From positions 1 to 27,853 of the IMG/VR virus record IMGVR_UViG_3300045953_000275: a stretch of DNA of 27,853 nt; one strand, 5' to 3'. The notes below the pieces were generated by a model. It had not been told where the DNA came from. It searched no databases and worked only from the letters and a program-made list of their open reading frames with translations. Positions 8,091 through 27,853 of this stretch are shown here, piece by piece. Made by a program: the position numbers and the translations under genes. This DNA comes from a virus. Each line of letters opens with the position of its first letter. Position 1 is the first letter of the stretch.

Positions 8091-8455
8091 TAGTCCTCCA
8101 GTTCCTCTTCAAGATCCCAGTCGCCCTTGCCGTCGTCGGGCCGCTTGGTGTTGGCGAGCTGCTGCTCACCGTTCTCGTTGACGACGATGCCATGCTCGTT
8201 CGTCAAACAATCGGCACCGGGCCGCGAGAACTTCGGCTGGTGATCACTCGACACGATGCCGGCGATCGCCTTGTACTTCTCCCAGGCGTCCTCGACGTTC
8301 GTCGCATCAACGACGATCTTCGGACCGCCAGGTAGCTCGACAAGAATCGGGCGGGTCTCCGCCTTCTTCAAGCCGGTGAACCGGCGGAGCAGCACCTTGC
8401 CGCCGCTCGGCTTCGCGGGAGCGGCTGCGGGAGCAGCCGGCTTTGCCTTCGCCAT
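8090..8455 (-). CDS. Hypothetical protein after the capsid gene (121 aa)
   Basis: A 121-residue protein. The first 20 residues are an Ala/Pro/Lys-rich low-complexity leader (MAKAKPAAPAAAPAKPSGGK). A compact middle follows with a strand-rich phrase (TRPILVELPGGPKIVVDATN) and a helix, EDAWEKYKAIAGI. The tail is strongly acidic (GDWDLEEELED). The middle reads like a small protein that recognises or modifies a surface rather than an enzyme. It lies between the capsid gene, separated by 98 bases holding hairpins, and the connector genes. Minor head proteins or head-fibre bases are common here. Function unknown. Confidence 0.65.
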   Translation of the reverse strand: MAKAKPAAPAAAPAKPSGGKVLLRRFTGLKKAETRPILVELPGGPKIVVDATNVEDAWEKYKAIAGIVSSDHQPKFSRPGADCLTNEHGIVVNENGEQQLANTKRPDDGKGDWDLEEELED

Positions 8456-8492
8456 GATTGAGTCTCCGTTGTATTGAGTGTTCGAGAAGAAT

Positions 8493-8520
8493 CCCGCGGG
8501 CGAGTCGCCCCGCCCGCGGG
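8493..8520 (-). terminator. 10-bp GC hairpin behind the capsid gene
   Basis: A perfect 10-bp stem (CCCGCGGGCG/CGCCCGCGGG) with an 8-base loop lies 33 bases past the capsid stop codon. A second small hairpin (GCGGC, three bases, GCCGC) at 8535-8547 directly follows the stop. No T-run is present. Structures of this kind behind highly expressed capsid genes often stabilise the mRNA 3' end or cause partial termination. Confidence 0.45.
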
Positions 8521-8553
8521 GATGGTATCAGACTGCGGCGAAGCCGCGGCCGA

Positions 8554-9750
8554 CTAGGCGTTGTAGACCTTCACGACCTTCCGCGGCTCGATGACCGCGG
8601 GAGCACCACGCTCGCTGGCCTTCCAGCGGAGCACGATGTCCTGCGTGAACTCGGGTTCGCTGTTCGACGGAGCCTGGACCACCGTCAGCGGCCAGTTCTC
8701 CATCCACGTGAACGCACCCTTGAAGTCGCCCATGAACCACCAGTGGGCCGCGTCGGAAGCCGACACGCCGCTGGCGATGAGCCGGCGATACATGAACTTG
8801 CTGAAGGTCAGCTGGTAGTTCTGCATCGTGTTCGGAGCGTCGCTGATGACGACGCCCGACTGCGTGCGGACTTCGTGGCGAGTCGCGTTGAGAACGCGAC
8901 CGAAGATGTGCCGACGAACCGGCATCGCGACGATCTGGTTCGCGTTGAGCACGATCGGCTCGCTGGTGTTCGGTTCGAGCATGTTCAAGAAGAGCTGCTC
9001 GACCTCGTCCACCTTCGTCCAATCGAACGCGGTCACACCGGAGTCGACGCCGGACTTGACGTTGATCCACGGAGTCGCGGTCTGGTACGTGTTGTAGGTC
9101 GTGCCCCGCCACTTGAAGGTGTTGGTCACGCCCAGGATCATGTCCCAAATCCGCTTCTCCTTCCGTCGCATCAAGACCTCGCCGACTTTGCCGGCTTGAG
9201 CGAGGACAAGCTTCGTGCGGTCGAAGAAGAGAGTCTCCTTCGTGACCGACACGATGCGGCCCTTCTTCGTGGTCGCCGGCGTCTCGACGTAATCCTCGTT
9301 GAAGCCGATCTGCGGATACGGCATTCCTTCGTGGATGTTGTCGTCGATGTCGTCGGTGAAGCCGGTCACACCGGGGATCTTCTCCCCATTGAGATCCGTC
9401 TTCGTGTTGTCGATCAGGGCCGCAGCCATGAACTCTTCCTGCTGGTAGCCCTCCATCACCCGGTTGTAGAAGATCTGCCCGGTGATGTTGCTGAAGCGGG
9501 AAAGGTCGATGCCGCTGGCCTGCGATTCGAGCAACGTCAAGCCGCCGCTCTTCTGCGGGCCGAGTGCCCGAATCCACTCGTGTCCGACCGCGTGGCCATC
9601 GCGATCGACGACCAAGCACTCCGCGAGGTCGCGAAGGCTGAAGTCGTCCGGCTTGAAGACCTTCTCCGTCAAGCCGGTCTGAAGGTGGCGGACAGCTTCG
9701 TCCGCTCCCTTCGCTTCGACGAGTTGTCGAATTTTCTTCACGTTCAACAT
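8554..9750 (-). CDS. Major capsid protein, HK97 fold (398 aa)
   Basis: The shell subunit of the head. The ATG at 9748-9750 (MLNVKKIRQLVEAKGADEAV) is chosen because AGGAGA lies about eight bases upstream; the longer frame lacks a site. Residues 120-175 (EGMPYPQIGFNEDYVETPAT, then KGRIVSVTKETLFFDRTKLV) match the E-loop and spine region of Mu gpT-like HK97-fold capsid proteins. Further phrases include a P-domain helix and ANQIVAMPVRRHIFGRVLNA. The C-terminal part is rich in Trp/Phe (WWFMGDFKGAFTWMENWPLT), with an A-domain-like finish VVIEPRKVVKVYNA. It sits behind the protease/scaffold and decoration genes, the classical order. Length is normal for this family. Confidence 0.85.
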   Translation of the reverse strand: MLNVKKIRQLVEAKGADEAVRHLQTGLTEKVFKPDDFSLRDLAECLVVDRDGHAVGHEWIRALGPQKSGGLTLLESQASGIDLSRFSNITGQIFYNRVMEGYQQEEFMAAALIDNTKTDLNGEKIPGVTGFTDDIDDNIHEGMPYPQIGFNEDYVETPATTKKGRIVSVTKETLFFDRTKLVLAQAGKVGEVLMRRKEKRIWDMILGVTNTFKWRGTTYNTYQTATPWINVKSGVDSGVTAFDWTKVDEVEQLFLNMLEPNTSEPIVLNANQIVAMPVRRHIFGRVLNATRHEVRTQSGVVISDAPNTMQNYQLTFSKFMYRRLIASGVSASDAAHWWFMGDFKGAFTWMENWPLTVVQAPSNSEPEFTQDIVLRWKASERGAPAVIEPRKVVKVYNA

Positions 9751-17960: not shown

Positions 17961-18272
17961 TCAAGTTCTCCTTGCTGTGCGGTTGACGATCGCAGTACAG
18001 AATCGCAGCACCGCAATTGCAATTGAGCCGAACATCACCATGGCGACGAGCTCACGGATTGTTTTCGGCAACCTCCACCATTCGTTCAGACCGTTCCAGA
18101 ACTCGGACCAGCGGGTGGACGCCGACGAGTCGCGGCCCTGCGGCGGATCGTTTGGACCACGGTCTCTTGTGAAGAACCGCCACCGCTCCGCATGTTCTCG
18201 ACGAGTTCTCGCAGGTAGGTCGCGATCTGATCGTCGAGCGAACCGGGTGTCGTCTTTGCTCGCATTTCCCAC
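17961..18272 (-). CDS. Possible small membrane protein, start uncertain
   Basis: An open frame of 103 codons with a GTG start and a hydrophobic segment at its end (LVAMVMFGSIAIAVLRFCTA). Its first half overlaps the C-terminal code of the thioredoxin-like gene and is Arg-rich, so it is probably not translated. The plausible gene is the part after the upstream stop at 18086, giving about 26-45 residues with one membrane segment. No good ribosome site precedes any candidate start, and the stop lies within the leader of the Cys-rich gene. I report it as tentative. Confidence 0.3.
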   Translation of the reverse strand: MGNASKDDTRFARRSDRDLPARTRREHAERWRFFTRDRGPNDPPQGRDSSASTRWSEFWNGLNEWWRLPKTIRELVAMVMFGSIAIAVLRFCTAIVNRTARRT

Positions 18273-19201
18273 GCACGCAATGCAACCAATGCGAACAAAA
18301 GTAGGATCTGCATTCCGCTTCCATTCGAGAACAAACGCTCTAGGATACCCCCCTGCTGCGGCGTCGCTGCGACTTGTTGCTGCATATCCGGCGGGAAGTT
18401 GAGCGGCTGGGGAGGACGCGGCGTGAACGGGTCCGCTGTCGGCACCGTGAACGGTGCCTGCGTCGCCCCTGCCGTAGGGTCCGATGGTGCCTCCGGTTCA
18501 TCTTCATCCGCTTCTGCACCCTCCGCAGATGCTCGATACGGAGCTGGCCGCGGGTAACCTTCCGCTGCCATCTTCGCGGCGTATGCACGGACGTCCTTCG
18601 TGAACCGCTCCGCGAGCTTCTTCGGATTGCCGTCGTACCCGGTGTACTGTGCGACGACCGTCTTCGCCGGCCCCCACGAATCATTCCGCGGCGGCTGGAT
18701 AACGATCGTCGGGGTGCCGTGTACGAAGTACCGCTTGAGTCGATCCTTCTGCGTCTCGTCGTGAATGTCGTAGACGTTGAAGTGGGCCCATGCTTTGTGC
18801 GGCTCCGGTGCTTCGATGAACGCCTTCAGGAAGTCGCTCGTGCGGAAGTCGCTGATCAACTGGTCGCACGGAGGACAACCCTTCTGCTTGAACACCGAGA
18901 TGAACCACATGTGGTTGTCATCGGGCGGAGGGGCCGTCGCAGAGATGACCGCATCCTGCGTTGCTCCACGCGGCCCTTCGCCGGCGACGACGAGGCTGTT
19001 GCCGCGGCGGATCGCTTCCGACGCATGCACCTCGACGACACCGAAGTTTGGCTGCTCCGGCTCATCAAGCTTCGGCTCCTCCTTCCGAGGCTCCAACTTG
19101 CCGACGCTTGGTACGGTCTTCTGCTCGACATTGGGGGTTTGTCCCCAGGAGATGCTTGAGACTGCGAGCAGTCCCATGAACAATCCGATCTTCTTCAACA
19201 T
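18086..19201 (-). CDS. Exported thioredoxin-like protein with CPPC motif and C-terminal membrane segment (371 aa)
   Basis: A signal peptide (MLKKIGLFMGLLAVSSISWG) leads into a thioredoxin-like domain: MWFISVFKQKGCPPCDQL has C109-P-P-C112, and HGTPTIVIQPP (161-171) supplies the cis-proline loop after the central strand. The surrounding strands and helices fit the fold. A Pro/Glu-rich linker (residues 215-285) follows, then a hydrophobic segment (MQILLLFALVALRAWE, 297-312) and a basic tail. This is a membrane-anchored oxidoreductase or binding protein acting outside the cytoplasm. It is in the exported-protein group before the packaging genes. CPPC is a reactive-disulfide motif, but its substrate is unknown. 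Confidence 0.75.
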   Translation of the reverse strand: MLKKIGLFMGLLAVSSISWGQTPNVEQKTVPSVGKLEPRKEEPKLDEPEQPNFGVVEVHASEAIRRGNSLVVAGEGPRGATQDAVISATAPPPDDNHMWFISVFKQKGCPPCDQLISDFRTSDFLKAFIEAPEPHKAWAHFNVYDIHDETQKDRLKRYFVHGTPTIVIQPPRNDSWGPAKTVVAQYTGYDGNPKKLAERFTKDVRAYAAKMAAEGYPRPAPYRASAEGAEADEDEPEAPSDPTAGATQAPFTVPTADPFTPRPPQPLNFPPDMQQQVAATPQQGGILERLFSNGSGMQILLLFALVALRAWEMRAKTTPGSLDDQIATYLRELVENMRSGGGSSQETVVQTIRRRAATRRRPPAGPSSGTV

Positions 19202-19808: not shown

Positions 19809-20201
19809 CTACTTGACCTCCATTTCAAAGGGAAGGATAATCAGTTGCTCGTTCGCGTTGTTTGGCGTAAGCGTGTATACAACGCGGTACACGCGACCAA
19901 TTGTCAGGAAAGGGGGAGTGGTTCGGTTGGGCGGAGTGTGCGAGAAGTTGTACTGCTCGCCGGTAAACTCGCTGGTCTGCGGAGCGTGGAGAACGTCGGC
20001 AGGATTGATCGACGCTTCCGCATAGCCTTCGACTTCGACTAGCTCCTTGTGTGGAAGCTTGAGCTCATAGACCTTCCAGCCAACGCTCGCGATGTCTCCT
20101 GGGGTAAGTACCTCCTCGCCCCAGCCGGTGGCCAGGCCGCGGAACTCGATGGTGCCGCCGCTGGGGACTTCGAACCGCGGGATCAGGATTGGTTCGTTCA
20201 T
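19809..20201 (-). CDS. Hypothetical virion protein (130 aa)
   Basis: A 130-residue, beta-rich protein starting MNEPILIPRFEVPSGGTIEF. Alternating hydrophobic strands (GWKVYELKLPHKELVEVEGY, FLTIGRVYRVVYTLT, LIILPFEMEVK) suggest an immunoglobulin-like or jelly-roll domain of the kind seen in phage decoration and fibre-attachment proteins. There is no export signal or membrane segment. It overlaps the large fibre gene by 4 bp, so the two are probably translated together and this protein could be its partner or a trimerisation/attachment factor. Function is inferred from position and fold pattern only. Confidence 0.6.
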   Translation of the reverse strand: MNEPILIPRFEVPSGGTIEFRGLATGWGEEVLTPGDIASVGWKVYELKLPHKELVEVEGYAEASINPADVLHAPQTSEFTGEQYNFSHTPPNRTTPPFLTIGRVYRVVYTLTPNNANEQLIILPFEMEVK

Positions 20202-22342
20202 AGCTGGACAACCTCAGCGTGTCGCAAGCCGGCGACTACCGGGTAGGTATACCGGAACTGGAACGGCCCCTGCGTATAGACCGTGCGGAGCGGGGCCGAC
20301 ACGCTCGCTCGTGCTTCGATTCGTCCATCGAGACTCCACGTTCCGACCAGCACACCGACCGCAGTCGATTGGGCGGAGACGACGCCGCGGAGTCCCCAGT
20401 TTACGATGAGGTTCGTCGACGCAACATTCGATGCCGCTGCCGCAGATCCTGCGAACGACTTGATCGTGGAGAGGAATCCTGCCGCGGTTGATCCCGCCGA
20501 CAAGCTTCCCGATACGATGAGATCTCGCGACAGTGTCGCAAGAAGTCCTGCATGAGCGTCGACTCGGCCTGCGATTGATCGATCGACTGCCGCGGCGGCA
20601 GATACTCCACTGCTTGCATTGATTGTCCCTCCCATGAAAGGCTGCTTGTCAAGTCTCGCCGGCCCGACGACCGACGTGCACGCGAACGACGCGGCGATTA
20701 GCTTGGTCGAGGAGAGTAGGGCCGCGACGCCGGATTGCCCGGCGATCGTCCCACGCAACTCCCGATCCACGAGCGGAGCGGCAGCGAGTGAAGCATGGGC
20801 ATCGACTGTGCCCGAGAGACTCCACGTTGCAGCCAAACTTGCAGCGGCGATCGAGGCGGCATTGATCGAGCCGCTCAACGCTCGTGTGGGAGTTGCCGAT
20901 CCGTTCACGGTCGAGACGCATGTGACCGATCCGCTGAGCGACCATGTCGCGATGAGTACAGAGTTAGCGACGTTGGATACTCCGGACACGGAGCCGCTCA
21001 TGGCGAAGGTTACATTCGCTCGACCAGTGACGGACGACTGTGCGGTGATTGAGCCGACAAGAGCCGGCTGCATGTCGACTCGACCGGTCGCATTCGATAG
21101 AGCGGTCACTCCGCCGCTCAACGACGCGGTCTGGTAGATCATCGTTCCCTGGCATGTAACTTGAGCCGTGATCGTTCCGCGGAGTGCGGTGCTGTAGACC
21201 GCATTACCGTTGACCGTCGTGACAGCGGTGATCGAACCGCTGATCTCCTTGATAAAAGTCATCTCCGCGGTGCCGACGATACTGACCGCGGTTACGGTGC
21301 CGGCGAGGAAAGGCTGCTTGTCCATGCGGGCGTCACAGGTTGCAATCGCGGTCGCGACGCCGGCGAGCTCGCGATCGACGGCCATGCTACCATTGACCGT
21401 GGAGACCGCTGACGGAGTGACGTGCATACCGATCCCAGGATCCCAGACCGCAGCGGGAACATTTGAAACCGCGTCGATCGTGCCTTGAAGCTCCTTCTCC
21501 TTTAGCAGATCGGATGGGCCGCACGTCGAGACCGCCGCGATCGCTGGAGCGAGAAGGTTGTACGGGTCGACCGACATTGCGGCATTCGCTCCGGAGACCG
21601 CGGTACAGGTCGCTTGCATTAGTACGGTCGCAGCGAATCCTTTCGCGAAGTAAACAAAGTCGCGGCGGGATCGGTGCGACTTGAATTCACCAGCAGCGTT
21701 GCCACCGTTGCTTGACGACAGTACGTCCGTCGAGACTTCGTCGCGAAGACGAGCGGTGCCGAGTAGATGGATGAACTGATCGAGTCCGCGGCGGAGACCA
21801 CCATTCGTCGGCCAGAAGCCTTTCGCCAAAGCCGTGATCTCCTCGTCCGCCAGATTGCGACTCCAGATCGCGAGATTCGCAGCATGGCATTTCGGATCGC
21901 TTGACATCGCCCGAGCGGACGCAGCTTGGAGCCAGTTGCGTGTGTCGCTACTAAACGTCGGCATCGACGCTCCGCTCCCCTTCGACTGCTTTGAGTTCGT
22001 GTTGAGCTGCATGCCCATGTCCGAACCGCTCCAGTAGAAGTAGAACATGTTCCAAGTGTCGGCCGACCAACCGCCATACTGGGCGTGACTTCGCGTGTAT
22101 GTCGTTCCGTCGATATCGATCACGACATTGCCGGTCGAACCGGACATACCGTCGTGATAGATTGAGAAGCTATCCATCGCGGTCATATCGTAAACGTCAA
22201 AGAACCAATGCCGGGTAAAGTCCGACATGTTGTTCGAAGCGTACGACGGATTGAACCAGAGAGCAAGAGCTCCAGTCGTCGGGATCGCTCGCGTCCCGCC
22301 AGCGACAGTATAGCTTGATGAGCCTCGAAAGTTGCGAGCCAT
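20198..22342 (-). CDS. Tail fibre with LamG-like head and 20-residue repeats (714 aa)
   Basis: A large virion surface protein. Residues 1-175 resemble a LamG/concanavalin-like carbohydrate-binding sandwich: SYTVAGGTRAIPTTGALALW, a GNVVIDIDGTTYT strand, and the closing helix AAANLAIWSRNLADEEITAL seen in such domains. From about residue 240 to 690 a unit of close to 20 residues (pattern: L/x-G-S/T-I/V-x-A-x-S-x-V-x-G-x-A) recurs about 22 times. Its DNA period is 60 bp. The C-terminal 25 residues are different (TVYTQGPFQFRYTYPVVAGL) and probably attach to the particle. The start overlaps the previous stop as TAATG. Confidence 0.75.
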   Translation of the reverse strand: MARNFRGSSSYTVAGGTRAIPTTGALALWFNPSYASNNMSDFTRHWFFDVYDMTAMDSFSIYHDGMSGSTGNVVIDIDGTTYTRSHAQYGGWSADTWNMFYFYWSGSDMGMQLNTNSKQSKGSGASMPTFSSDTRNWLQAASARAMSSDPKCHAANLAIWSRNLADEEITALAKGFWPTNGGLRRGLDQFIHLLGTARLRDEVSTDVLSSSNGGNAAGEFKSHRSRRDFVYFAKGFAATVLMQATCTAVSGANAAMSVDPYNLLAPAIAAVSTCGPSDLLKEKELQGTIDAVSNVPAAVWDPGIGMHVTPSAVSTVNGSMAVDRELAGVATAIATCDARMDKQPFLAGTVTAVSIVGTAEMTFIKEISGSITAVTTVNGNAVYSTALRGTITAQVTCQGTMIYQTASLSGGVTALSNATGRVDMQPALVGSITAQSSVTGRANVTFAMSGSVSGVSNVANSVLIATWSLSGSVTCVSTVNGSATPTRALSGSINAASIAAASLAATWSLSGTVDAHASLAAAPLVDRELRGTIAGQSGVAALLSSTKLIAASFACTSVVGPARLDKQPFMGGTINASSGVSAAAAVDRSIAGRVDAHAGLLATLSRDLIVSGSLSAGSTAAGFLSTIKSFAGSAAAASNVASTNLIVNWGLRGVVSAQSTAVGVLVGTWSLDGRIEARASVSAPLRTVYTQGPFQFRYTYPVVAGLRHAEVVQL

Positions 22343-23363: not shown

Positions 23364-24002
23364 CTACTCGTCGACTTCTTCCCACTCGATGCCGAGGGCC
23401 GCGACCACGAAGGCGGCAGCGTTCGCGGCGAGAGCGAGTGCTCCGCCGGGCGGGATGCAGATCGAGCCGTTGAGGTCGTCGATCTGCTGCCAGGGAGCGT
23501 TCGTCTGAGCAGCGGTCTGGGCGACCTGCGAGACACCGTGCGGCATCAAGTAGGTCATCGCGACGACTGTCGCCGCGGTGACGAGCCGGGCCGCGGAGCC
23601 GGATGGGCTGGCCGCGTCTTGCAAGCGGGCCGACTGGATGAGGGCCGCGGTGCCCGAGACCGCATTAGTCAAGAGCGTGTTGGTCGCGTAGCAGAAGTGG
23701 CCCGCGACCATCGTGCCAGAGATGTAGCCGATCCGAGTGCGGAGCACGTGGAAGAGCTTGCCCGAGCCGATCGGATTGTGAAGGACGAACTGCTGCGTCG
23801 TGTTGCTGAAGATCGGCACTGTGACGCCGGCAGCAGGCGTCGAGCCGATGAAGATCCGCCGGCGAGCGGCCATCTCCGAATAAATGCCGCGGACGTTCAT
23901 TGCGGACGACTCGCCATAGCGGCCCCGCCACGCTTTGATCTCCGCTCCGTCGGGTGCTCGCGTCTGCGGCCCCACGACGCCAAGGACTTGTTGATCCGAC
24001 AT
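23364..24002 (-). CDS. Putative virion surface protein (212 aa)
   Basis: A 212-residue protein starting MSDQQVLGVVGPQTRAPDGA. It is Ala/Gly/Thr-rich and beta-dominated, and ends with ICIPPGGALALAANAAAFVV and ALGIEWEEVDE. The phrase 'P-P-G-G-A-L-A-L-A-A-N-A-A' plus a final I-x-W-E-E strand is typical of Planctomycetes and related phage surface proteins that I recall as jelly-roll or decoration-like. I cannot verify a family. There is no signal peptide or membrane segment. It sits with the other virion proteins of the fibre region, and resembles the 183-residue gene between the terminase genes. Confidence 0.6.
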   Translation of the reverse strand: MSDQQVLGVVGPQTRAPDGAEIKAWRGRYGESSAMNVRGIYSEMAARRRIFIGSTPAAGVTVPIFSNTTQQFVLHNPIGSGKLFHVLRTRIGYISGTMVAGHFCYATNTLLTNAVSGTAALIQSARLQDAASPSGSAARLVTAATVVAMTYLMPHGVSQVAQTAAQTNAPWQQIDDLNGSICIPPGGALALAANAAAFVVAALGIEWEEVDE

Positions 24003-24067
24003 ACCGTGTTCTCCTGGAAGTGGTTGAGTTGAGAGTCAGCTCCGGGAGGAGCCGGCGGCAGCTTGGA

Positions 24068-24460
24068 CTAGTCGAGCGTGACGTCGATCTCGCCGGCGTT
24101 GAACTTGGGCGTGTCGCCATTCGTGATGGACTTGCTCGTGGTCAACGCACCGTGAGCCAGCATGTTGCCGGCGGACGACGCATCGAAGAGAGCGAAGTGG
24201 GTAATCGTTCCCCACGAGCCGCTCGCGGTAGGGAAGGTGACCGCGTTCGTGTTGGCGGTCGCACCGCTCGCGGCGGCGTCCCAAGTGTTGCAGAGGGTGC
24301 GGGCGTAGTTGTTGCCCGAAGGTTCAGCGATCGAGCCACCGCTGTCCGTCGGATCCGCGGTGCTCAGTGCGACGTAGATGTTCGTCGGCACCGTGAAGCT
24401 CGCGACCTTGAACACGTGGTCGAGCAGCTTGTTCTCAAGGTAGTTCGAAAAGGATCCCAT
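24068..24460 (-). CDS. Phage tail-fibre-family protein (130 aa)
   Basis: A 130-residue protein starting MGSFSNYLENKLLDHVFKVA. The opening SNYLENKLLDHVF, the phrase VPTNIYVALSTADPTDSGGS, and GTITHFALFDASSAGNMLAH with the closing GALTTSKSITNGDT match a widespread phage family usually annotated 'tail fibre protein', in which the pattern is Y-V-A-L-x-T-x-x-P-T-D, then W-G-T-I-T-H-F-A-L-F-D. It is beta-rich, with no export signal. GGAGGT precedes the ATG, and a 336-base non-coding stretch lies upstream, so it probably begins a transcription unit for the fibre region. The name comes from recalled family resemblance. Confidence 0.72.
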   Translation of the reverse strand: MGSFSNYLENKLLDHVFKVASFTVPTNIYVALSTADPTDSGGSIAEPSGNNYARTLCNTWDAAASGATANTNAVTFPTASGSWGTITHFALFDASSAGNMLAHGALTTSKSITNGDTPKFNAGEIDVTLD

Positions 24461-24796
24461 GTAGACCTCCGTTCAAATTGCAATAGGACACTGTACAGTG
24501 CAACGTCCTCAAGCGGGCGGGTGTTTCGCAACACTCCGCCACGACGTCCCAACGAGCCTCCGACGCCAAGTCCGGACTCAACATCGACGCTGAAACTCCG
24601 CTGCTAGAGGTGCCGCATTCTCAGGCTGAGATTCTCCCGGAGAAACTGAAATTCCCCAAAAGGTCTTTCAGGCGGGGCCGCGAGAACGGAGCGGCGAGAG
24701 GACTTATGAAATTGCAAATTGCAAGATGCCGGCGTGCATCAGCCGGCCCCGAGCGAAGAGAATGCTCCAGGGGCCGCGTACCGTAAGGGAGCGGCG
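24461..24796. promoter_or_regulatory. 336-bp non-coding stretch with palindromes
   Basis: No credible gene is seen. The stretch carries a perfect 12-bp palindrome CACTGTACAGTG at 24489-24500 just upstream of the tail-fibre-family gene, flanked by AGGAC/GTCCT arms at 24485-24489 and 24505-24509. It also has two adjacent 13-bp palindromes with one central base (TCTCAG-G-CTGAGA at 24619-24631 and TTCTCC-C-GGAGAA at 24632-24644), a repeated 15-mer at 24657-24671 and an ATTGCAAATTGCAA block near 24710. A promoter with operators for the leftward fibre and head genes is the likely role. No clear -35/-10 pair was found. Confidence 0.45.
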
Positions 24797-25021
24797 TCAG
24801 GGGTGCTTACCGCTTGCCAACTCAATCTCTGTGCTCGTGCTCTCGCCGCGGAGACGCACGTTACTGAAGACTGCGGAGTGGAATTCCCGCCCATCGAACC
24901 AGCCGACCTCATACTGTACGTGGAGCGGCGGGCCGATCATGATGACCTTGAGTACGTTGCCGTTGACCGGGTCATCGACCGGACCGACATCGACTTCACT
25001 ACCCGGCTCGATTATGAGCAT
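24797..25021 (-). CDS. Small hypothetical protein (74 aa)
   Basis: A 74-residue protein starting MLIIEPGSEVDVGPVDDPVN with GGAGCC-type ribosome site (GAGGGAGCC) next to the ATG. It is beta-rich: V-x-V strands (VLKVIMIGPPLHVQYEVGWF), a FDGREF turn and two further strands, so a small OB- or SH3-like barrel is likely. It overlaps the previous gene by 23 bases. The pattern I-x-G-P-P-x-H-V-Q-Y-E-V-x-W-F-D-G is reminiscent of small phage proteins that read 'W-W-x-D-G' at a barrel end. No known function. Confidence 0.6.
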   Translation of the reverse strand: MLIIEPGSEVDVGPVDDPVNGNVLKVIMIGPPLHVQYEVGWFDGREFHSAVFSNVRLRGESTSTEIELASGKHP

Positions 25022-25223
25022 GGCTCCCTCCGAATATGCGAATGCGAATGAACGACTGGACGCTTACCTCTTCGGCTTCGGCCAGCTCGTTCAAGCGGGC
25101 CGCTTCCTCTTTTGTCAATCGGACAAGGACCTGCTTGTCCCGAATCGGCAGCTTCCCGCGGACCTTCGCCGCGAGAGCTGCTTGACGTTCGCCCCATCGT
25201 TGGGATTGTTCGAACTGGCTCAA
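24999..25223 (-). CDS. Possible ribbon-helix-helix DNA-binding protein (74 aa)
   Basis: A 74-residue protein starting MSQFEQSQRWGERQAALAAK. After a basic helical N-terminal part comes KQVLVRLTKEEAARLNELAE, then SVQSFIRIRIFGG: a short beta-strand followed by two helices with hydrophobic residues at the expected spacing. This is the layout of ribbon-helix-helix (CopG/MobC-like) DNA-binding proteins. It overlaps the next gene upstream by 4 bp. If it is a repressor or relaxase accessory protein, the palindromes between 24461 and 24796 are the closest candidate targets. The fold is assigned by eye. Confidence 0.5.
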   Translation of the reverse strand: MSQFEQSQRWGERQAALAAKVRGKLPIRDKQVLVRLTKEEAARLNELAEAEEVSVQSFIRIRIFGGSHAHNRAG

Positions 25224-25675
25224 GGCTTCGACTCCTGGGATGAACCAGTGTTGCCGGGCCGCTTCGGACGATCCGGCGGCACCGGTTCGAGCGGAAGGGC
25301 CGGCGTGAAGGGTTGGACCTCCATGTCGATGCGAGTGCGGACCGGTTCAGGCTGGATGAGCAGCTCGCGTCCGTCCGGCAACACATAGCGGATCTCAACC
25401 ATCGTCACGCTTGTCGTGACTCCGTCTGCGTCGATTGCGGCCACCGATTGCTCTGATGCAGAGATCTTCGGCTTGCCGTCTTGATCGACCCAACCGAACT
25501 CCCGAGCCTTCGTCGCCCAGTTGTTCGAGTCCACGTACGAGCTTCCGTTGCCGAGCAGCGATGCGATGAGCATCGCCAGCAGTCCGTACCACGTCCAGCT
25601 CCCAGCCTTGCTTGGTTGGGAGTTGACGGAGACGGAAACGGAGCCTTCGGATCCTTGCCTTGATGGACTGTCCAT
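25220..25675 (-). CDS. Hypothetical single-pass membrane protein (151 aa)
   Basis: I start at the ATG at 25673-25675 (MDSPSRQGSEGSVSVSVNSQ) because AAAGGAGAG lies just upstream; a longer frame continues through the preceding gene. It has a polar N-terminal part, a membrane segment (TWYGLLAMLIASLLG, residues 28-42), then a soluble domain with ISASEQSVAAIDADGVTTSV and VRYVLPDGRELLIQPEPVRT. It ends in a Pro-rich tail. This is a membrane-anchored protein with the bulk on one side. Overlaps the RHH-like gene by 4 bp. I do not recognise the family, and a virion role is not shown. Confidence 0.6.
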   Translation of the reverse strand: MDSPSRQGSEGSVSVSVNSQPSKAGSWTWYGLLAMLIASLLGNGSSYVDSNNWATKAREFGWVDQDGKPKISASEQSVAAIDADGVTTSVTMVEIRYVLPDGRELLIQPEPVRTRIDMEVQPFTPALPLEPVPPDRPKRPGNTGSSQESKP

Positions 25676-25713
25676 GTTCTCTCCTTTCATATCGGTTCTT
25701 GAGTTGACGGACA

Positions 25714-26427
25714 CTAGACTTGATCGCTCGCTTGAGACGATCCTTCTGTCGCTTCGCCATCGTCCTTGACCTCCTCTCCGACGACAGACGCAAGGGGATG
25801 TGCACAGGGGCCGTCGTGGCCTTTGTTGCGAGTGCAGGCTGCGTAGCCCGGTGTCGGCGGTACAAAACCGCACGGTATGTCCATATCATCGAACATGCCG
25901 CCGGTCGGTTGCTGCATCGCCGACTCGACGCTCGTGTCGGGGCCGCACCACTTTGGATAGTTCGCTTGCGAGAGCCGCCGCGAGAGCTCGCGGCACTTCG
26001 CTGGATGCATTGGGTATGTCCGCTTGGCGACGCCGCACGGTAAGCAGACGCCGGTGCGGTCCTTGTACGAGCAGTACCCGCAGTCCTCGCATGGTCCATA
26101 TGCGAGCCGCGGCTCCTTGCCATGCTCGACGATCCACACCATTGCGGACGACGGCCAGTCGCCGCGTTCGAGACTGGCTTCATGTGCGTTGTTGATCGCG
26201 GATTCAAGATCGGTCTCGTAGCTGCGGCGAGTCCGCGTCCGACCGTCCTTCTCGTATTCGCGTTCCCAGAAGAACGCGGCGTTGATGACAGGCGGATCCC
26301 AAGCCGCCTTGCGTGCTCGTCGAGCTGTGAGCCACTGCTTGTAGAGACGACGCCAAAGATAGGCGACGAACTCGAAGGCGACGACACCAAGCATACACGC
26401 CACGATGATCAAGAAACCAGTAAGCAT
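25714..26427 (-). CDS. Membrane-anchored Cys-rich protein (237 aa)
   Basis: This is the first gene of the late operon. The N-terminal MLTGFLIIVACMLGVVAFEF is a membrane anchor, followed by a basic segment (YLWRRLYKQWLTARRARKAA) and a soluble domain. Two Cys groups stand out: GPCEDCGYCSYKDRTGVCLP at residues 111-130, a zinc-ribbon-like C-x2-C-x2-C...C-x2-C arrangement, and IPCGFVPPTPGYAACTRNKG followed by HDGPCAH (185-210), a motif pattern I recall from Cys/His-containing proteins. A ribosome site AGGAG precedes the ATG, with a promoter-like TATACT about 95 bases upstream. Metal binding is inferred from Cys spacing. Confidence 0.6.
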   Translation of the reverse strand: MLTGFLIIVACMLGVVAFEFVAYLWRRLYKQWLTARRARKAAWDPPVINAAFFWEREYEKDGRTRTRRSYETDLESAINNAHEASLERGDWPSSAMVWIVEHGKEPRLAYGPCEDCGYCSYKDRTGVCLPCGVAKRTYPMHPAKCRELSRRLSQANYPKWCGPDTSVESAMQQPTGGMFDDMDIPCGFVPPTPGYAACTRNKGHDGPCAHPLASVVGEEVKDDGEATEGSSQASDQV

Positions 26428-26520
26428 CGCTGCTCTCCTATTTCGACCAAGATTCCTGAAATGGGCACCTTTCGATCGCCATCGGGTGGCGATTCTGATT
26501 CCAGATTGTGGGTCGCGTTA

Positions 26521-26526
26521 AGTATA
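26521..26526 (-). promoter_or_regulatory. Possible -10 promoter element TATACT
   Basis: On the minus strand TATACT lies about 95 bases upstream of the first late gene. It matches the sigma-70 -10 consensus at five of six positions. No convincing -35 was found at 16-18 bases, so the promoter, if real, probably needs an activator. The long inverted repeat begins 47 bases upstream of it. Confidence 0.35.
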
Positions 26527-26572
26527 TCCGTTTGAAACCACGATGAGGGGGTAGGCGGTGGGGTGGGGGTGG

Positions 26573-26672
26573 TTACCCGATTACGCACTGTGGGGGGCCG
26601 CGAATGTTGGGCGAAATTATTGTCCTCATTTTCTAGGCTCTTTCTTGCATTTCGCCCAACTTCGACCCGATT
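26573..26672 (+). repeat. Right copy of the diverged 100-bp inverted repeat
   Basis: Begins TTACCCGATT and ends CGACCCGATT on the plus strand, with shared blocks TGTGGGGGGCCGCG, CGAAATTAT and TTTCGCCCAA in the same order and spacing as the left copy at 1422-1521 (minus). It contains its own inner inverted repeat (TTGGGCGAAAT/ATTTCGCCCAA). Its inner end faces the start of the late operon, and its outer half overlaps the 3' part of the CsrA-like gene. Confidence 0.7.
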
Positions 26673-26874
26673 CTGAACCCGATTCCCGACCCGATTTTCG
26701 GAAGAGGCTGTCGTCCTTCAAATCGATGACGTGCGTCAACGTAAAGGAGTGCGGCCCCTCAAGGAGAAGGCGGACCTTGCTGTCCCCAACCTTCCCCACC
26801 TGGAGCACGAGCCGCTCCCCCGAGTGTTCGATCAGGATCCCTTCCGCCTTGTGTGCGTCAACGATGAGAGCCAT
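26626..26874 (-). CDS. CsrA-like small protein (82 aa)
   Basis: The ATG at 26872-26874 (MALIVDAHKAEGILIEHSGE) is used; it lies 2 bases past the stop of the next gene upstream. The first 55 residues, GILIEHSGERLVLQVGKVGD then SKVRLLLEGPHSFTLTHVID, resemble the strand order of CsrA/RsmA RNA-binding proteins (I-x-I/V-L-x-V, then K-V-R-L-x-x-E-x-P and a final V/T-x-H/R). The usual AP and R-E residues are altered (EGP, THV). The C-terminal 27 residues are Ser/Gly/Arg-rich and are encoded by 12-bp repeats. CsrA-like proteins control translation. Homology is only suggestive. Confidence 0.45.
   Translation of the reverse strand: MALIVDAHKAEGILIEHSGERLVLQVGKVGDSKVRLLLEGPHSFTLTHVIDLKDDSLFRKSGRESGSESGRSWAKCKKEPRK
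26663..26698 (+). repeat. Three tandem 12-bp repeats (CGACCCGATT type)
   Basis: Units CGACCCGATTCT, GAACCCGATTCC and CGACCCGATTTT follow one another at the outer end of the right inverted repeat, with a strict 12-bp period. They encode the Ser/Gly/Arg-rich end of the CsrA-like protein on the opposite strand. The left stretch has two such units at 1408-1431. Confidence 0.6.
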
Positions 26875-26876
26875 TG

Positions 26877-27503
26877 TTACTCCGGTTTGAAGCCGACAGC
26901 GGCGAGTGCGTCCATGCATTCCTGGAGACAGTGCGGTCCGAACTGCGGGATGGCCATGAGCTGGCTCCGCGTCTTGTTGAGCAGGTCGTGGATCGTGAAG
27001 ACCCCATCGCGGTGGAGCCAGCCCAGCGTCCGCTCCCCGATGCTCGTCATCTCCAGCCGCATGTCGAGAATCTCGGAGCGGGTCGGAGCGACCTTCCGCC
27101 GCGTCTCGGACTCGCGGGCCGCTTCACGGCAGACCGCGAAGAGCATGTCCCACCGCTCGCTCGCCATGGCGTGTGCGAAGCGGAGGAGGTACTTGCGGAG
27201 GAACTCCACGTCCACCGTCGGATGGATCCGCGTGCTCACGCCGGCAAGCAAGTCCGCGAGTGCTTCGTCCTTGGTGATGCCCTTGGTCCCCTTGTACCAA
27301 TCGCGAGGATCGACCTCCGGCTTCTCGTCGATCTCGTACTCGTCGCCCGGCTCCTGGGAGTAGAAGAGAGTGTCTGGGTCCACGTGCCCCAGCAGGACTT
27401 CGCGGCGTTGGTTCTTCGCCGGCCCGGTCCGCCGCTTCGCCTTGAAGCGAGGACCGCCGCGTCCTTCCCCGCCATAGTGCATCTTGTTATACTTCTTCGC
27501 CAT
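26877..27503 (-). CDS. Protein with RNA polymerase alpha-CTD-like C-terminal domain (208 aa)
   Basis: The start is the ATG at 27501-27503 (MAKKYNKMHYGGEGRGGPRF), with AAGGAGG upstream. Residues 152-208 (TSIGERTLGWLHRDGVFTIH, then DLLNKTRSQLMAIPQFGPHC, then LQECMDALAAVGF) follow the bacterial RNA polymerase alpha-CTD pattern: L-S-x-R-x-x-x-x-L-x-x-x-G-I-x-T-I-G-D-L, then L-x-x-I-x-x-F-G-x-x-S-x-x-E-x-x-x-x-L-x-x-x-G. The N-terminal 60 residues are basic and polar, and the middle is helical. Such a domain binds DNA UP elements or activators. The gene overlaps the winged-helix gene by 17 bases. A phage copy could redirect host polymerase. Confidence 0.7.
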   Translation of the reverse strand: MAKKYNKMHYGGEGRGGPRFKAKRRTGPAKNQRREVLLGHVDPDTLFYSQEPGDEYEIDEKPEVDPRDWYKGTKGITKDEALADLLAGVSTRIHPTVDVEFLRKYLLRFAHAMASERWDMLFAVCREAARESETRRKVAPTRSEILDMRLEMTSIGERTLGWLHRDGVFTIHDLLNKTRSQLMAIPQFGPHCLQECMDALAAVGFKPE

Positions 27504-27853
27504 TGGTTCCTCCTTGACGCTTGCGGCGGGCCGCGATCGCGGACGCCAGATGGCTTTCACCCGGTGCCATTTCCGTCCAGAGCTCACGCAGCTCCGGTGC
27601 CACATCGAAGTATTCAGGCTGTCGGCCGACGCTTACGCTCTGCGGCTGCTTGGCCGACGGCAGCAGCTGGCCGAGTACGAGCATGTCCTCGATACGCCGG
27701 TTGAGCGTCGTACGTGGGATGCGAGCGGCGTCGCAGAGATCGGGCCGCGGGATGTTGCGACCATCGCCCATCGCCATCATAGCCTCGATGATGTCGAGGT
27801 TGAAGCCGATGGCCGTGTCGAACGCGAGCCGCTCCACGAGCCGATGCTCGTCG
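27487..27853 (-). CDS. Winged-helix DNA-binding protein, cut by the window edge
   Basis: The frame stays open to the right edge, so the true start is probably outside the window; a GTG at 27837 is possible but has no ribosome site. The visible 121 residues include IIEAMMAMGDGRNIPRPDLC and AARIPRTTLNRRIEDMLVLG, a helix-turn-helix in which the second helix carries the basic recognition residues, followed by a beta-hairpin (VSVGRQPEYFDVAPELREL). This is a MarR/Lrp-like winged-helix layout. Together with the alpha-CTD-like and CsrA-like genes it forms a regulatory group before the late operon. Confidence 0.6.
   Translation of the reverse strand, partial: DEHRLVERLAFDTAIGFNLDIIEAMMAMGDGRNIPRPDLCDAARIPRTTLNRRIEDMLVLGQLLPSAKQPQSVSVGRQPEYFDVAPELRELWTEMAPGESHLASAIAARRKRQGGTNGEEV

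Follow-up and report, generated by a model that had tools for sequence, protein, structure and literature searches.

An RNA polymerase alpha-CTD-type domain in a phage protein, with its closest match in a standalone protein family of Planctomycetota

In the window, that is, the whole 27,853-base virus record that was analyzed, the minus strand encoded terminase, portal, minor head, capsid, and tape-measure proteins. At one end lay the end of a putative primase-helicase gene, a gene for a 208-aa protein with an alpha-CTD-like domain, and a gene for a CsrA-like protein (Table 1). The first two of these overlapped by 17 nt. The comparisons in Table 1 are with L043, a 51.6-kb contig that was the only other phage found to cover this junction. 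A sequence-only reading of the window had given coordinates for the 208-aa gene; the gene at that interval was genuine, but its strand was found to be the minus strand.

Table 1. Features at the alpha-CTD locus of the window
Feature	Coordinates	Strand	Remarks
Alpha-CTD-like protein gene, 208 aa	27503-26877	minus	ATG at 27503, stop codon ends at 26877; open reading frame and codon-position G+C
Ribosome-binding site AAGGAGG	27509-27515	minus	5 nt ahead of the ATG of the 208-aa gene
Alpha-CTD-type domain, residues 138-205	26889-27092	minus	PF03118 above cut-off, PDB phmmer, model and Foldseek
Putative primase-helicase, C-terminal end	27487-27852	minus	Cut by contig edge; 40% identical to end of L043 772-aa ORF
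CsrA-like protein, 82 aa	26626-26874	minus	Begins 2 nt past the alpha-CTD gene's stop; 31% identical to L043 gene

The G+C content of the 208-aa gene at codon positions 1, 2, and 3 was 0.65, 0.43, and 0.86, respectively. A plus-strand ORF at 26874-27704 had values of 0.82, 0.50, and 0.61 and was rejected as a shadow frame. By charge count, residues 1-35 of the 208-aa protein were basic (12 K/R versus 2 D/E) and residues 36-75 were acidic; residues 76-137 are probably helical according to a low-confidence model, and residues 138-208 made up the alpha-CTD-like domain. Modeling the full-length protein from its single sequence gave a poor result (pLDDT 40.9). A candidate 2OG-Fe oxygenase domain in the middle part scored 16.1 bits, under the cut-off of 23.1, and was discarded. 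Scans of viral and genome collections and a tblastn search in phages returned no homologue of the whole protein. Pfam matches to the 208-aa protein included no alpha-NTD family, which would represent the alpha N-terminal assembly domain, so the protein should not be able to act as a core subunit of RNA polymerase (RNAP).

The C-terminal part had been recognized from two motifs, G-x-x-T-I-x-D-L and F-G-x-x-x-L-x-E, and both were found (GVFTIHDL and FGPHCLQE). The Pfam family PF03118 (RNA_pol_A_CTD) matched residues 146-201 with 25.4 bits (E 1.2e-5, cut-off 23.8), which was 13 bits more than the generic helix-hairpin-helix family HHH_5 obtained (12.3 bits); the alpha-CTD family was thus preferred, in agreement with the sequence-only reading. 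With the isolated domain (73 residues) the scores were 28.6 and 14.9 bits, respectively. A profile search of all 27,853 nt gave a single PF03118 match, the 208-aa gene. When PDB sequences were searched with phmmer, 46 of the 48 matches at E<=10 were RNAP alpha subunits (best E 1.7e-5). In 500 shuffles of the C-terminal part, the maximum with the standalone-class models described below was 4.8 bits versus 48 observed, and the alpha-CTD resemblance is well beyond chance.

The alpha-CTD fold was also recovered by structure prediction. The model of the isolated domain, built from a two-sequence alignment of the phage domain and one viral relative, had five helices and a mean pLDDT of 80.8. The first 16 PDB matches in Foldseek were RNAP alpha chains, the best with an E of only 0.027 at a probability of 1.00. 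In VIA-align, an alpha-CTD reached Z 8.9 (1.3 A over 57) versus Z 8.4 for Dmc1, which is a tie, and the N-terminal domains of RAD51/Dmc1 are therefore equal to the alpha-CTD as a fold match. Assignment to the alpha-CTD family is consequently carried by sequence, as the fold alone would not decide. Judged on that sequence evidence, the C-terminal domain is a genuine and correctly recognized alpha-CTD-type domain.

Residues of the domain were mapped on Salmonella RpoA, which has the residues expected from E. coli numbering at the positions scored (R265, N268, C269, G296, K298, S299, and E302); we take these to be DNA- or sigma-contact positions. The DNA-binding surface of the RpoA-CTD type (R265, N268, N294, G296, K298, S299, and E302) was not retained as a whole. 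The equivalents of R265, G296, and E302 were kept, and changes were found at 268 (G), 294 (Q), 298 (H), and 299 (C), as well as at the equivalents of 259 and 261. Asparagine occupied position 268 in all 22 standalone rows and in 17 of the 18 RpoA rows, and position 294 in every row of both classes (22/22 and 18/18). With these positions altered, the usual DNA and sigma contacts may be gone, and the changes at 268, 294, 298, and 299 make ordinary UP-element binding by the phage domain doubtful.

To place the phage by its host, the best 80 of 380 terminase relatives in a species-genome collection were kept. Records titled with Planctomycetota names held 78 of them, and the remaining two were in a Nealsonbacteria and a Campylobacterota record, each under 4 kb. 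These sequence matches point to a Planctomycetota host. Twenty Planctomycetota genomes, picked by hand and not at random from the records with terminase relatives, were searched with PF03118. Each of them had an RpoA-length open frame with a match, and most had a further, longer frame bearing two adjacent alpha-CTDs; the only such protein tested, that of L151, was a TPR protein. An extra alpha-CTD-like gene of a standalone class was present in 18 of the 20 genomes, in 17 as a short frame and in 1 within a longer open frame. With RpoA, the two-CTD protein, and this mini-gene, the alpha-CTD set of Planctomycetota is an enlarged one. The short host frames were about 84-151 aa. Standalone copies outside rpoA had been called rare, which does not hold given their presence in 18 of these 20 genomes and the existence of comparable phage proteins. 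When the phage protein was compared with 392 Planctomycetota genomes, 13 gave a match at E<=1e-5, which in 9 genomes was to a short frame. The host standalone gene had a conserved neighbor in opposite orientation at 15 of 18 loci, and the longest copy of this neighbor, the one tested (L177), was a UvrD helicase. Separately, an 893-aa Planctomycetota protein (L176, 785-3463, minus strand) matched PF03118 twice and Sigma70 region 4 once, with a relative in L175; by its matches it would be a combination of alpha-CTD and sigma-like parts. A plasmid match in OY725837 was set aside as an ordinary rpoA followed by rplQ.

The phage domain matched the standalone class more closely than the other classes. 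The standalone-class model scored 48.6 bits against it, 48.1 bits when built from 18 members chosen without the phage protein, and 42.2 bits when the two most divergent members were removed. The RpoA-class model scored 23.9 bits, and the models of the two TPR-protein domains scored 15.7 and 26.6 bits. Blastp separated the classes less, with a best score of 56.6 bits for the standalone class versus 47.8 for RpoA; the best identity to a Planctomycetota standalone protein was 44% over 71 aa. A tree grouped the phage domain with the standalone class (support 98/98 and 100/98) on a very long branch, and approximately unbiased (AU) tests did not reject kinship with RpoA or the TPR-type domains (p 0.16-0.39). 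Planctomycetota standalone proteins and the phage domain have in common 'F-T-[VI]-x-D-L-L' and a closing 'G-F'. In contrast, the standalone proteins retain N268, N294, K298, and T/S299, which the phage protein has lost, and the phage protein has about 137 additional N-terminal residues, whereas the family is otherwise little more than the domain itself. By sequence comparison, then, the phage domain appears closer to the host standalone family than to RpoA, and it was probably captured from that family, which is the best reading but unproven.

The gene neighborhood was compared with that of L043. The 772-aa ORF of L043 had weak matches to a CHC2 zinc finger (20.1 bits, cut-off 24.9) and Toprim_2 (12.6 bits, cut-off 22.2), and we read it, and with it the cut-off gene of the window, as a putative primase-helicase. 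An ORF at 27487-27837 had been considered a standalone winged-helix regulator and was rejected, being the C-terminal end of this longer, edge-cut protein. CsrA membership of the 82-aa neighbor was unconfirmed by profile, with scores below cut-off; the L043 CsrA-like protein scored 13.9 bits with the CsrA family (cut-off 27), the resemblance being one seen by eye. The CsrA-like query retrieved only the L043 contig in the viral search. In L043, the primase-helicase and CsrA-like genes were adjacent, the latter (8324-8698) following directly. PF03118 had no match in the whole L043 record. The junction in L043 thus has no alpha-CTD gene, indicating that the gene was either inserted in the phage studied here or lost in L043. 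Nor was there a PF03118 match in 41 records with related terminases, many of which were short fragments, and the sole match among 123 loci (L002-L124) was the rpoA of L044. The primase-helicase, the alpha-CTD protein, and the CsrA-like protein are probably made together, upstream of the structural genes.

The sequence-only reading had placed the gene directly before a late operon control region, and none was detected beside it. A scan limited to sigma70-like promoters found none in 23900-27853, terminator-like sites in the same interval numbered 2 (on the plus strand in each case) against an expectation of 2.9, and a repeat search found no repeat suggesting a control region. Two other minus-strand genes of the window were noted. 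That at 18086-19201, between the terminase end and the remaining structural-side genes, encoded a protein whose N-terminus resembles a signal peptide and which matched a thioredoxin-like domain slightly under the threshold (24.1 bits, cut-off 27). That at 20198-22342, like L043 12361-15444, encoded a long protein with many short L-x-G-x-V-x-A-x-S-x-x-x-G repeats; from these repeats, both are possibly fibre-like.

The alpha-CTD is one of the main sites at which activators dock on bacterial RNA polymerase. We tentatively favor the reading that the 208-aa protein is a host-derived adaptor that docks on DNA or protein and acts on transcription in a tailed phage of Planctomycetota, although we would put this at somewhat less than an even chance. 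A host standalone alpha-CTD gene would have been captured, would have diverged strongly, and would have been joined to a phage-specific N-terminal part. Binding to a phage target would fall to the N-terminal part; the alpha-CTD-like head would attach either to promoter DNA or to one of the usual partners of an alpha-CTD, the candidates being the RNAP holoenzyme and the host standalone or TPR-type alpha-CTD proteins. Such docking could skew host transcription at about the time when structural genes take over from replication genes. This proposal is consistent with the PF03118 score above cut-off and its preference over HHH_5, the standalone-class score and tree grouping, the Planctomycetota terminase relatives and the frequency of the standalone gene in such genomes, the retained R265, G296, and E302, and the other phages in which N-terminal parts are fused to alpha-CTDs. 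The tight packing of the gene between the primase-helicase and CsrA-like genes, together with its absence from the L043 junction, also argues for it. On the other side are the changes at 268, 294, 298, 299, and the equivalents of 259 and 261, the AU tests that leave RpoA or TPR-type kinship unrejected, the lack of a promoter signal in the interval scanned, and the fold tie with RAD51/Dmc1; interaction with RNAP is a prediction.

The main rival, which we consider rather unlikely, is that the protein is a DNA-gripping accessory of replication or repair, in which the alpha-CTD/helix-hairpin-helix fold only holds DNA and the partner is the primase-helicase of the overlapping gene. The gene overlap itself agrees with this, as do the tie with RAD51/Dmc1 and the altered DNA positions of the RpoA type. 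Genes around related domains agree as well: the conserved opposite neighbor of the host standalone gene was a helicase in its longest copy, and in the 227-kb IMG/VR jumbo contig 3300013120_000738 (L190), the gene for a related 104-aa protein overlaps a uracil-DNA glycosylase gene, with RecA-like and DnaB-like genes (names read from sequence) a few kb away. However, sequence favored the RNAP alpha-CTD family over HHH_5, L043 has the same primase-helicase end yet no such gene, and adjacency of phage genes is weak evidence of partnership.

Another scenario, taken from the sequence-only reading, which had also considered anchoring of host polymerase to phage promoters, is that the protein acts as a decoy, lowering host transcription by occupying UP elements or the partners of the alpha-CTD. 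A free alpha-CTD that cannot enter the polymerase core could presumably compete with that of the host, and R265 was kept. Phages elsewhere attack the alpha-CTD and remove it from host RNAP, as reported for Rac (PMC7552054). Nevertheless, the changed equivalents of N268, N294, K298, and S299 make an UP-element decoy less likely, the host's own free alpha-CTD protein already has these positions intact, and the gene adjoins replication and structural genes and is not in an obvious early host-takeover cluster; we regard the decoy as improbable. Just as improbable is a recently acquired accessory gene of no settled role, caught by chance from a host and now drifting, for although the protein had no whole-length homologue in the searched collections, a very long branch, and no counterpart at the L043 junction, its frame was intact, its codon positions were strongly biased in G+C, a good ribosome-binding site preceded it, and it was packed tightly between two genes of the same direction.

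A phage-made alpha-CTD-type protein of the standalone type would offer a handle on a host family that was widespread in the genomes examined and on transcription takeover by Planctomycetota phages. At present it is a sequence-level find. A literature search, with most subscription papers outside its reach, found no study of phage-encoded alpha-CTD proteins and none of standalone Planctomycetota alpha-CTD proteins. Among database records, 9 of the 50 BFVD matches listed (76 in total) bore the name of RNA polymerase alpha or of the alpha C-terminal domain, at weak E-values of 0.034 to 5.3. Seven of the 16 records matched in a phage collection were examined. Six were rejected as phage alpha-CTD proteins, having a full-length rpoA beside rplQ and thus being cellular DNA; phage-labelled records with a cellular rpoA-rplQ pair include OR844994, OR846589, MT835508, MT839913, MT837710, and MT836419. 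The seventh, from Bacillus phage vB_BmeM-Goe8, was the only phage alpha-CTD protein among them.

Compared with bacterial RpoA, the phage protein shares the Pfam family and fold of the C-terminal domain but lacks the alpha N-terminal domain and is altered at DNA and sigma positions. The L190 contig was the only one retrieved by an additional viral scan. Its 104-aa protein was likewise nearer the standalone class (55.2 bits versus 23.1 for RpoA), but is half the length of the phage protein and has a different N-terminus. It also matches the C-terminal end of phrog_1660, 'PmgS-like head morphogenesis' (PHROG, E 6e-5), which suggests that this family may hold an alpha-CTD-like domain. The Microbacterium phage proteins Atraxi gp24 and Mazun gp26 (Akonivirus; 139-141 aa, 'DNA binding protein') have a C-terminal PF03118 match of 42.7 and 50.5 bits, respectively; they are nearer the RpoA-CTD than the standalone class, and their N-termini and hosts differ from those of the 208-aa protein. 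Microbacterium phages Morrill and TrippleS also have 'DNA binding protein' genes with a PF03118-type domain.

The layout most like that of the phage protein was found in Goe8_c00050 (210 aa, annotated 'RNA polymerase subunit alpha', PF03118 78.1 bits), in which a phage-specific N-terminus of about 145 aa is followed by a C-terminal alpha-CTD. Its domain keeps R265, N268, and N294 and is not of the standalone class, with which it scored 34.7 bits versus 34.5 for RpoA and 41.4 for a TPR-protein domain. The Goe8_c00050 N-terminus is unrelated to that of the 208-aa protein and has a relative in phage SBSphiC (31.5% identity), where this N-terminal part occurs without an alpha-CTD. The alpha-CTD would therefore be an add-on in Goe8 or have been lost in SBSphiC. 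A broader scenario, and one we think unlikely as a whole, is that Planctomycetota run an enlarged alpha-CTD toolkit (RpoA, the TPR protein with its two alpha-CTDs, and the single-CTD mini-protein) from which the phage took the mini-protein, remodeled the surface that faces DNA, and added an N-terminal part of its own, so as to steer host RNAP as replication gives way to structural genes; phages whose hosts are unrelated would separately have done likewise with RpoA-like CTDs, making this a recurrent phage fusion module. Taken together, these comparisons indicate that the phage gene is uncommon but has precedents, and that it is of a kind already present, though uncharacterized, in phage databases.
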